From Thermus thermophilus (GTDB lineage: Bacteria > Deinococcota > Deinococci > Deinococcales > Thermaceae): a DNA stretch of 64,000 nt. Below are positions 6,772-22,789 of the stretch, piece after piece; within the stretch, counting starts at the first letter, position 1; every line of letters starts with the position of its first letter. Location of the stretch: contig NZ_AP025158.1 of NCBI RefSeq assembly GCF_019974155.1, positions 1,178,001 through 1,242,000 on the forward strand. The letters run 5' to 3'. Below the pieces are notes generated by a model. It was given only the letters and a program-made list of their open reading frames with translations. It was not told the origin of the DNA and did not search any database. Position numbers and translations under genes: made by a program.

Positions 6772-7193
6772 GTATCAATCCCCTTACGGGGCTCAAGCTC
6801 TTGCAACCCCGTGGGCCCGCAGGGTCCCGGGGTGGGCTATTACTGGTCGCAATCCCCTTACGGGGCTCAAGCTCTTGCAACCGGGCGGATGAAGCCATCC
6901 GCCCGGTCGCCCTTCCCTGGGGGTCGCAATCCCCTTACGGGGCTCAAGCTCTTGCAACGCCTACCACGTGGCCCTCCTCAGGCCCAAAAGCGGCCTCTAG
7001 TCGCAATCCCCTTACGGGGCTCAAGCTCTTGCAACGCTCCTTCGTGGTCCTCCGGGGCCGGTACCGCCTGGAGAGCTAGTCGCAATCCCCTTACGGGGCT
7101 CAAGCTCTTGCAACTGCGGAGGCGGGCGCGCCGGAGCGGGAGGACGGAGGTGGTCTAGTCGCAATCCCCTTACGGGGCTCAAGCTCTTGCAAC
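6772..7193 (-). CRISPR. CRISPR array, six 36-bp repeats and five spacers
   Basis: Six repeats start at 6772, 6846, 6923, 7000, 7079 and 7158. On the plus strand each begins GTCGCAATCCCC and ends CTCTTGCAAC. Spacers are 38, 41, 41, 43 and 43 bp. The reverse complement ends in ATTGCGAC, the crRNA 5' handle known for Thermus type III repeats, so the array is read on the minus strand from 7193. The repeat at 6772 is degenerate (GTATCAATC for GTCGCAATC), as expected for the oldest, leader-distal end. The repeat core CCCC-TTAC-GGGG can form a short hairpin. No cas genes lie in this window. Confidence 0.97.
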
Positions 7194-21261: not shown

Positions 21262-21510
21262 TCAGTCAAACAGGTCAAAGAGCTCCAGGAAGCCCTTTTT
21301 CTTCTTGTAGGGCTTGCCCTCCTTGCGGTAAAAGCCCTCCAGCTCCTCCTCGTAGCCGCGCTCCACCTCCTTGGCCTCGGCCAGGAGCTTCTCCAGCTCC
21401 CCCTTGTCCAGCCACACCCCGCCGCACTGGGGGCAGACGTCAATCAGGACGCCGCGCCGCTCCACCTCCCGCATGCCCACCCCGCAGTGGGGGCAAAGGA
21501 GCAGGGGCAC
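21262..21510 (-). CDS. Zinc-ribbon protein, TFIIB-like (zf-TFIIB)
   Basis: The 82-residue protein is a small zinc ribbon with two CxxC knuckles, LLCPHCGVGM and DVCPQCGGVWLDKGELEKLL. The second is the hallmark of the bacterial zf-TFIIB family. A charged tail follows (KPYKKKKGFLELFDLFD). Function is unknown in the family. It starts at GTG 21510, touching the stop of the membrane peptidase gene, so it is probably expressed from the riboswitch-controlled transcript. Confidence 0.8.
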   Translation of the reverse strand: MPLLLCPHCGVGMREVERRGVLIDVCPQCGGVWLDKGELEKLLAEAKEVERGYEEELEGFYRKEGKPYKKKKGFLELFDLFD

Positions 21511-22197
21511 CTACTCCTCCCTCCGGCCGAAGAGGCCGAGAAGGCTCGCGTAGTAGAGGATCGTGGCCAAGGAACCCGCCAAGGCGGCCACGTAGGTGAG
21601 GGCCGCCCAGGTGAGGACCCGCCGGGCAGGGCCCATCTCCTCCGGCCTGAGGAAGCCCATGCGCCTCAGGAACTCCAGGGCCCTACGGGAAGCGTCAAAC
21701 TCCACGGGCAGGGTGATGAGCTGGAAGAGGGCCACGGCCAGGTAAAGGTAAAGGCCGAGCTTGGCGAGGCCCAAGGCTCCGAGGAAGAGGCCGGCGAGGA
21801 CCAGGATGGGCCCCAGGTTGCTCCCCAGGCTCGCCGCAGGCCAGAGGCTCGCCCGCACCCTAAGCCAGGCGTAGCCCCGAGCGTCCTGCACCGCGTGCCC
21901 CACCTCGTGGGCGGCCACGGCCAGGGCGGCCAGGCTCGGCGAGGCGTAGTTGGGCTCGGAAAGCCGCACGGCCTTGGCCTGGGGATCGTAGTGGTCCGTG
22001 AGGGCCCCGGGCACGGGCTCCACCCGGACGTGGGTGAGGCCGTGGGTGTCTAGGATCGCCCGGGCCACCTCGGCCCCCGTGAGCCCCCGGCTGTTCGCCA
22101 CCCGGCTGTAGCGGGCAAAGGTGGCCTGTAGACCTCCTTGGATGGCCAGGCTGGCCACGAAGACCAGGATCATGAGCAAGAACGCAAGCGTGTCCAT
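21511..22197 (-). CDS. YugP-type membrane zinc metallopeptidase
   Basis: The 228-residue protein has an N-terminal membrane helix (LAFLLMILVFVASLAIQGG) and the zinc motif AVAAHEVGHAVQD (HExxH) at about residue 100. Further hydrophobic segments follow (LGPILVLAGLFLGALGLAKL and the C-terminal VAALAGSLATILYYASLL). The third zinc ligand is likely the glutamate of LPVEFDASRRAL, typical of this family. Substrates are unknown. The start ATG 22197 has an excellent Shine-Dalgarno, GGAGGGAG, placed just after the P1 stem of a yybP-ykoY riboswitch. Expression may therefore depend on manganese. Confidence 0.87.
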   Translation of the reverse strand: MDTLAFLLMILVFVASLAIQGGLQATFARYSRVANSRGLTGAEVARAILDTHGLTHVRVEPVPGALTDHYDPQAKAVRLSEPNYASPSLAALAVAAHEVGHAVQDARGYAWLRVRASLWPAASLGSNLGPILVLAGLFLGALGLAKLGLYLYLAVALFQLITLPVEFDASRRALEFLRRMGFLRPEEMGPARRVLTWAALTYVAALAGSLATILYYASLLGLFGRREE

Positions 22198-22207
22198 GGC
22201 TCCCTCC

Positions 22208-22341
22208 TTCCGGGGAGTAGCAGAAAACGAGGCCACCCAAAGGTGGTCTCGCCATGCGCCTCAAGGCGCCCCAGCCGACCGGGGATGCCTCCCGTCCTGA
22301 CGACCGGCTGGCCCCACTTTCGGGGCGGCTACTCCCCGGAA
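22208..22341 (-). promoter_or_regulatory. yybP-ykoY (manganese-sensing) riboswitch
   Basis: The minus-strand leader opens with UUCCGGGGAGUAGC (22328-22341), which pairs perfectly over 14 bp with GCUACUCCCCGGAA (22208-22221) to form P1. Between them are the hallmarks of the family: GUCGUCAGGAC, a CCGGUCGG segment, a short hairpin GCGCCUUGAGGCGC, and GGCGAGACCACC. These occur in the order of the B. subtilis yybP element (GGGGAGUAGC, GUCGUCA, CCGGC, hairpin, AGCAAGACC). RNA starts right at P1 from the promoter at 22347-22375. CUCCC of the P1 3' strand could pair instead with GGGAG of the Shine-Dalgarno, suggesting that P1 formation turns translation on. Confidence 0.88.
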
Positions 22342-22346
22342 CTCAC

Positions 22347-22375
22347 TTTATAACAAGAAGCCGTCCCCCCTGCAA
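22347..22375 (-). promoter_or_regulatory. Promoter of the riboswitch-controlled operon
   Basis: On the minus strand, -35 TTGCAG (22370-22375), a 17-base spacer and -10 TATAAA (22347-22352). The expected start site, six to seven bases on, coincides with the first base of riboswitch P1. The -35 lies immediately beyond the usp stop codon. Confidence 0.8.
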
Positions 22376-22789
22376 CTACCGGACGAGGAGCACGGGGCAA
22401 GGAGCCTCGGCCACCACCCGTTGGCTCTGGCTTCCCAGGAAGAGGCTTCCCACCGCCCCAAGGCCCCGGGTGCCCATGACGATGAGGTCGGCCCTCTCCC
22501 CCAAGGCGGCCTGGAGGATGGCCTCCGCCGGGCGGCCCTCCAGGAGGAGGGCGTCCTCCCGGGGCACCCCGGTGAGGGCCACCGCCTCGGCCAGGACCTT
22601 TTCCGCCCGCTCCAGGCGGCGCTTCAAGGCCTCCTCAAAGAAGGGCTCCCCCAGGTAGTCGGGCACGGGCTCGTAGACGTGGACCACGACAAGCCTCGCC
22701 CCGTGGGCCTCCGCCTCGGCCTTGGCGGCCTCCGCCGCCCGCTTGGCGTGCTCCGAGCCGTCGTAGGCCAGGAGGATGGTCTTGAACAT
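22376..22789 (-). CDS. Universal stress protein, UspA family
   Basis: The 137-residue single-domain protein begins with ILLAYDGSEHAKRAAEAA (nucleotide-binding strand and aspartate). It ends with the ATP-binding pattern G-2x-G-9x-G-S as MGTRGLGAVGSLFLGSQSQR, followed by APCPVLLVR. It should therefore bind ATP. Such proteins are dimeric and are induced under stress; the client process is unknown. It is transcribed alone: a hairpin separates it from Hsp33 upstream, and a new promoter begins at its stop codon. Confidence 0.93.
   Translation of the reverse strand: MFKTILLAYDGSEHAKRAAEAAKAEAEAHGARLVVVHVYEPVPDYLGEPFFEEALKRRLERAEKVLAEAVALTGVPREDALLLEGRPAEAILQAALGERADLIVMGTRGLGAVGSLFLGSQSQRVVAEAPCPVLLVR

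Follow-up and report, generated by a model that had tools for sequence, protein, structure and literature searches.

The yugP locus and its leader

In the window (the whole 64,000-nucleotide stretch of Thermus thermophilus DNA analysed here), a minus-strand leader of ~145 nt lies in the interval that separates a universal-stress gene, which ends at 22376, from yugP, whose start codon is at 22197; yugP is a predicted membrane metallopeptidase gene and is followed immediately by a gene for a small zinc-ribbon protein. The operon stops before a convergent MazG gene and, when checked for an unannotated metal-transport gene sharing the transcript, none was seen. The main features, all on the minus strand, are the following.

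21262..21510 (-), zinc-ribbon gene, 82 aa, PF13453 (E 9e-20), whose GTG start abuts the yugP stop
21511..22197 (-), yugP, membrane HEVGH metallopeptidase, 228 aa, PF04298 Zn_peptidase_2 (E 8e-85)
22202..22209 (-), yugP Shine-Dalgarno AAGGAGGG, read from the sequence
22208..22221 (-), putative anti-aptamer strand A' GCUACUCCCCGGAA, complement of 22328-22341
22222..22251 (-), terminator-like hairpin CGAG-A-CCACC/GGUGG-C-CUCG (22251-22228) and U-tract UUUUCU (22227-22222)
22245..22337 (-), whole predicted yybP-ykoY aptamer (RNAalifold consensus with E. coli mntP and alx; covariance model R2; RF00080)
22337-22336/22246-22245 (-), aptamer P1.1, GG:CC (RNAalifold consensus)
22335-22330 and 22250-22247 (-), aptamer L1 strands GGAGUA and GAGA (RNAalifold consensus)
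22329-22327/22253-22251 (-), aptamer P1.2, GCC:GGC (RNAalifold consensus)
22311..22326 (-), aptamer helix P2, pairs retained in 97.5% of cells
22272..22310 (-), aptamer helix P3 with the metal-binding loop L3, GUCGUCA (22304-22298)
22256..22269 (-), aptamer helix P4, pairs retained in 100% of cells
22347..22375 (-), promoter TTGCAG (22375-22370), 17-nt spacer, TATAAA (22352-22347), read from the sequence

The position of the -10 box TATAAA predicts a transcription start at ~22340, and a TATAA-type -10 box occurs at a near-constant distance from the aptamer in 27 of 27 Thermus-lineage leaders; the promoter is missing from the list of a consensus promoter scanner. The leader is highly structured, with a predicted fold of -84.7 kcal/mol (z -4.2) that none of 200 shuffled sequences equalled. 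Its 5' end forms with A' a 14-mer that is the sole perfect complement at 80-140 nt spacing within the whole window. This A:A' pairing is retained in 87% of cells, with both-sided changes at 4 pairs, and it scored above shuffles, which take no account of the relatedness among leaders. A' extends by two bases into the Shine-Dalgarno sequence, whose AAGGAGG is mostly conserved among the Thermus leaders aligned. The 3' aptamer strand GGCGAGACC (22253-22245) lies 3' of GUCGUCA and is also the 5' arm of the terminator-like hairpin.

Several of these elements had been described in a first-pass annotation of the locus, and most of its observations proved accurate: the pairing of 22328-22341 with 22208-22221 is exact over 14 bp, the predicted start site falls at this helix, GUCGUCA and GGCGAGACC follow each other in the order given, and CUCCC (22217-22213) is indeed complementary to GGGAG (22204-22200) of the Shine-Dalgarno sequence. 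It overlooked the terminator-like hairpin and the U-tract behind it. Elsewhere in the window, a CRISPR array with six DR36 repeats (RF01346) occupies positions 6772-7193 (minus strand).

YugP, its partner and the metal-related genes of the genome

To our knowledge, YugP peptidases occur in several bacterial phyla and have almost no known function. The protein encoded here, whose closest named relative is that of T. arciformis (96%), carries HEVGH at residues 97-101 and an invariant E166; the HEVGH and EFDA motifs are intact in all 30 yugP loci read. Its predicted structure, made of long helices and a small sheet, was confident (pLDDT 91.6), and a fold search with this model returned no significant PDB match, the best being a designed bundle (VIA, Z 6.7). 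The metallopeptidases ArdC, IrrE and BepA, considered as fold relatives, were rejected (Z 5-6, within noise).

The zinc-ribbon gene abuts yugP in 24 of the 26 Thermus loci and in the sister genus. The peptidase and zinc-ribbon genes are an unusual target for this class, as was claimed at the outset, and the aptamer-yugP arrangement is genus-wide and recurs outside Thermaceae. MntP, GDT1/UPF0016 and Nramp were all absent from the same genome, which encodes one cation-efflux (CDF) protein and two TerC proteins, one of them downstream of a second riboswitch element.

Assignment to the yybP-ykoY class

The leader scored 22.5 bits against RF00080 (E 1.6e-4), with no match at the gathering score of 45 bits. 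Taken by itself, this shortfall would suit a chance match to an unrelated structured RNA. However, the validated E. coli mntP leader (41.6 bits) is also rejected at that score and the E. coli alx leader was not found at E < 0.01, so that the RF00080 cut-off is an unfair test. Because a first covariance model (R1) included E. coli sequences, which made its matches to E. coli circular, we built a second one (R2) from Thermus-lineage yugP leaders only, with no E. coli sequences. R2 retrieved E. coli mntP at E 5e-9, alx at E 1.5e-4 and TerC leaders from other species at E 3e-5 to 7e-13; it gave the window leader, itself part of the model, 110.8 bits. With such matches a chance resemblance is refuted in practice, and we grant it next to no probability.

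The consensus of the Thermus leaders with mntP and alx corresponds to the canonical P1.1-L1-P1.2-P2-P3-P4 fold, with both-sided changes at 12 of 29 pairs and a four-way junction of P1, P2, P3 and P4 homologous to that of validated members. The L1 strands required by the class, GGGGAGUAGC and GNGAGACC, are present in the leader, and GGGGAGUAGC and GGCGAGACC occur in every intact Thermus leader aligned. L3 reads GUCGUCA or GCCGUCA in the Thermus leaders and is lost in only two of them (see below). A22298 is the counterpart of the invariant Mn-contacting adenosine of the class, known from crystal structures as A41 in L. lactis and A48 in X. oryzae (PMC6754395). L1, L3 and this adenosine are retained in all intact Thermus leaders, in which the loops vary freely. 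An expression platform competing for the aptamer P1 strand is also present, as the hairpin 22251-22228 takes the 3' strand.

Judging from these sequence comparisons, the leader belongs almost certainly to the yybP-ykoY aptamer class. The common consensus fold and the R2 matches to mntP and alx thus bear out the initial class assignment. One element of it had to be redrawn: in the consensus the aptamer P1 consists of GG:CC and GCC:GGC around the L1 loop, and not of the 14-bp helix. The leader represents an established riboswitch class, here with an uncommon target and supplemented by an anti-aptamer arm. The insensitivity of RF00080 suggests that further targets of the class are being missed, and annotation using this model probably misses members.

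Competing pairings and the direction of the switch

Three pairings share the two aptamer strands: the aptamer itself, the 3' strand with the terminator arm, and the 5' strand with A'. In the latter, GGGGAGUAGC pairs with GCUACUCCCC downstream of the aptamer, which is mutually exclusive with the aptamer P1. The two non-aptamer pairings are compatible with each other and together exclude the aptamer. The U-tract comprises 3-6 U after the hairpin in 24 of 24 intact Thermus leaders. A terminator scanner listed the leader hairpin with its U-tract (2 found against 1.1 expected); the U-tracts vary, those of some Thermus leaders being weak (CGAGGCUUUU, CGUUCCUUGUU), and in the sister genus the tract is missing.

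For the complete leader, the alternative fold is favoured over the aptamer fold by 14-22 kcal/mol (37-70 C) and, therefore, the choice between them must fall during transcription. In a prediction made without tertiary and metal energy, the transcript limited to the aptamer was 3.5-5.4 kcal/mol above its best fold. In most species only two G:C pairs of P1.1 are clean. Like the poor U-tracts, these two points speak against the antitermination reading given below. In the L. lactis riboswitch, Mn2+ stabilises P1.1, which is nucleated by its first two G:C pairs and whose 3' strand otherwise builds the terminator (PMC11087558).

We consider that the yugP leader is probably a manganese-ON transcriptional antitermination switch, a reading adopted by analogy with the L. 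lactis element and with the element ahead of TerC in this genome, whose terminator has the same position. At low Mn2+, the 3' strand GGCGAGACC(ACC) would pair with GGUGGCCUCG and transcription would end at the U-tract. At high Mn2+, Mn2+ and Mg2+ would dock L1 with L3 and keep the 3' strand in the aptamer; no terminator would form, and yugP and the zinc-ribbon gene would be expressed. After the passage of RNA polymerase, A' together with the hairpin's 3' arm would dismantle the aptamer into the 14-bp helix, leaving the Shine-Dalgarno sequence more open. The antitermination reading leaves A' with no obvious role.

The first-pass annotation also proposed an ON switch, in which a ligand-stabilised 14-bp helix would free the Shine-Dalgarno sequence. 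The direction stands as the best reading, now by virtue of the terminator-like hairpin, but the release mechanism does not, and translational logic alone predicts an OFF switch. This helix does coincide with higher Shine-Dalgarno accessibility and the predicted start site lies at its end. However, it uses up the L1 strand required for Mn2+ binding, and the canonical P1 is made with GGCGAGACC (PMC6754395): the bound aptamer would pair GGGGAGUAGC with GGCGAGACC and break the 14-bp helix, which the ligand would thus oppose rather than stabilise. We find this translational ON switch very improbable.

A translational OFF switch deserves more attention. The Mn2+-bound aptamer would hold GGGGAGUAGC, leaving A' (CUCC) to pair with the Shine-Dalgarno sequence and repress yugP; without Mn2+, A' would pair with GGGGAGUAGC and the site would be open, the U-tract serving as a mere junction linker. 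When the aptamer was held in the predicted folds of 24 leaders (the two decayed leaders described below were left out), the predicted Shine-Dalgarno accessibility was lower in 19 of them; the mean at 70 C was 0.34, as compared with 0.52 otherwise. In addition, A' is specific to yugP leaders and is retained in both decayed leaders and in the sister genus, where a strong CUCCC-CGAA-GGGAG pairing exists in a leader devoid of U-tract. Nevertheless, the CUCC:GGAG pairing is missing in some species (L008, L014), the 14-22 kcal/mol advantage of the full-length alternative fold makes a thermodynamic Mn2+ switch unlikely, the loss of the U-tract together with the aptamer is left unexplained, and the class acts as an ON switch in described cases (PMC11087558, PMC9190785). 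We regard repression by Mn2+ as unlikely.

In the sister genus (L030, genome G049), the leader keeps its aptamer intact and lacks a U-tract; its 3' aptamer strand takes part in a very long hairpin, and the Shine-Dalgarno sequence is covered by a strong one, CUCCC-CGAA-GGGAG. This leader may represent a translational version.

Antitermination through the 3' strand could also be combined with an opposed output located after the terminator, the anti-aptamer and anti-Shine-Dalgarno strand A', both coupling Mn excess to the peptidase and its zinc-ribbon partner. We advance such a double output only tentatively. If true, it would make possible a graded or transient response, unlike that of the yybP-ykoY elements described so far in the literature examined.

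Two leaders that lost the aptamer and the U-tract

Two Thermus leaders (L025 in genome G048 and L028 in G041) have lost L3, including the Mn-contacting adenosine. Their U-tract is gone as well (2 U in 8 positions, longest run 1, as compared with the 3-6 U of the intact Thermus leaders), and the zinc-ribbon gene has been lost genome-wide in both, while yugP and the A:A' pairing are kept. A single shared loss was rejected, as the yugP tree places the two lineages apart (AU p 2.8e-5 for one clade). Because they were lost together with the aptamer twice, independently, the U-tract appears to be part of the switch and the zinc-ribbon protein may belong to a manganese-linked function; the joint losses support the former and suggest the latter, although the number of events (n=2) is small.

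These losses also bear on the possibility that the aptamer answers mainly to another divalent ion (e.g., Ca2+, Cd2+ or Co2+) or that, its metal response being lost, it serves mRNA stability. Crystals of class members show bound Cd2+, and Ca2+ binding has been reported for one of them (PMC6754395, PMC9495176); likewise, a long 5'-terminal helix could conceivably shield an mRNA in a thermophile. However, the retention of L1, L3 and the Mn-contacting adenosine in all intact Thermus leaders despite freely varying loops, and the loss of the U-tract wherever L3 is lost, make such alternatives quite improbable.

Distribution of the leader and of the class

The leader was present in all 26 Thermus yugP loci found, intact in 24 of them, and in the sister genus. 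Among 111 Deinococcota genomes, the elements detected outside the yugP loci of Thermus and its sister genus preceded genes for TerC (47), a Na/Ca exchanger (3), a small protein with a KPYK-rich tail (3) and others (2, one of which lies inside a coding frame and is probably false), plus one more yugP (L117). The exchanger-associated elements (L131, L133, L135) precede a protein of the Na/Ca-exchanger family (PF01699). In three Meiothermus-like genomes (L092, L109 and L110 in G020, G009 and G018, respectively), an element and a terminator precede a protein of 61-71 aa with no Pfam match and the pattern MKKIFFKLLALLVGRLLARRFGY...FFKPYKYKKKKS..KKLxDxxD, with a tail similar to the one of the zinc-ribbon protein in Thermus (KPYKKKKGFLELFDLFD).

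We searched for the aptamer at 74 yugP loci outside Thermus (Meiothermus, Trueperaceae, Bacilli, Bacteroidota and others) using R1 and a core-motif search that recovered 54 of 58 known elements, and found it at none of them, with one unconvincing AT-rich motif match. Because 0 of these 74 loci carry the aptamer, the link between yugP and the aptamer is, as far as these searches reach, local to Deinococcota, where it probably arose or persisted at least twice.

A proposed link between manganese and membrane proteolysis

According to the antitermination reading, Mn excess would raise the level of a membrane metallopeptidase alongside that of the TerC encoded behind the second riboswitch. Proteins of the TerC family supply metal to exported proteins, and B. 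subtilis cells that have lost them cannot do without the FtsH protease (PMC10550928). The raised YugP would plausibly dispose of membrane proteins that are mis-metalated or jammed in the translocon, or of a metal transporter; the removal of damaged membrane proteins or of such a transporter at high Mn is our most economical guess about its role. A single YugP phenotype was found in the literature searched: germination of B. subtilis was slightly delayed in a strain in which htrC was also deleted (PMC13393411). We found no link between YugP and manganese or yybP-ykoY elements in the open-access literature searched, and an earlier mention in the 2015 papers on the class (Dambach; Price) is possible.

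The Thermus yugP leader thus provides a candidate link between manganese sensing and membrane protein turnover. The occurrence of a predicted Mn riboswitch ahead of yugP across Thermus and in another Deinococcota family offers a concrete condition under which to test YugP. If the link is true, the manganese response would include regulated membrane proteolysis, which would agree with the dependence of TerC mutants on FtsH (PMC10550928) and with the cleavage of MgtE by YqgP under manganese stress (PMC7231995).

Comparison with known systems

At the protein level, a parallel is the B. subtilis rhomboid YqgP acting with FtsH, in which Mn excess also raises membrane proteolysis, with cleavage of MgtE (PMC7231995). 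In contrast with the yugP leader, control is exerted there on the protein, through a metal-sensing domain, and the protease is unrelated to YugP.

Among RNA elements, the E. coli mntP and alx leaders share the aptamer core recognised by the Thermus-only R2, and alx, like the yugP leader, has a hairpin drawing on its GAGACC strand; they differ in that their targets are known Mn2+ exporters. A second element of the same genome lies directly ahead of TerC (G000, C1:1595158-1595249, equivalent to positions 201-292 of L097, C1:1594958-1597249), and was absent from the RF00080 search output for that genome, whereas R2 detected it. It shares with the yugP leader the class, the genome and the position of the candidate terminator, which in the TerC element is a clean GACCACCG..GCGGUGGUC-U-tract, but its target is TerC, its P1.1 partner is longer (GGUUGG/CCACC), its U-tract is stronger and it lacks A', of which GCUAC was absent after all 44 TerC elements tested.

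The L117 leader, from another family of the same order (family f5, genus g27; element at 201-297), also places the aptamer upstream of a YugP peptidase. It differs by a 40-codon ORF between the aptamer and yugP and by the capacity of GACCU of the aptamer strand to pair directly with the Shine-Dalgarno sequence AGGAGGUC, a plain ON arrangement. Finally, the transcriptional yoaB riboswitch of L. lactis shares with the yugP leader the aptamer fold, the L1 and L3 residues and a 3' P1.1 strand that doubles as part of a terminator, an intrinsic one in yoaB (PMC11087558) and a candidate one in yugP, whereas the yugP leader is distinguished by its peptidase-operon target, its two clean P1.1 pairs and the anti-aptamer strand placed after the terminator-like hairpin.
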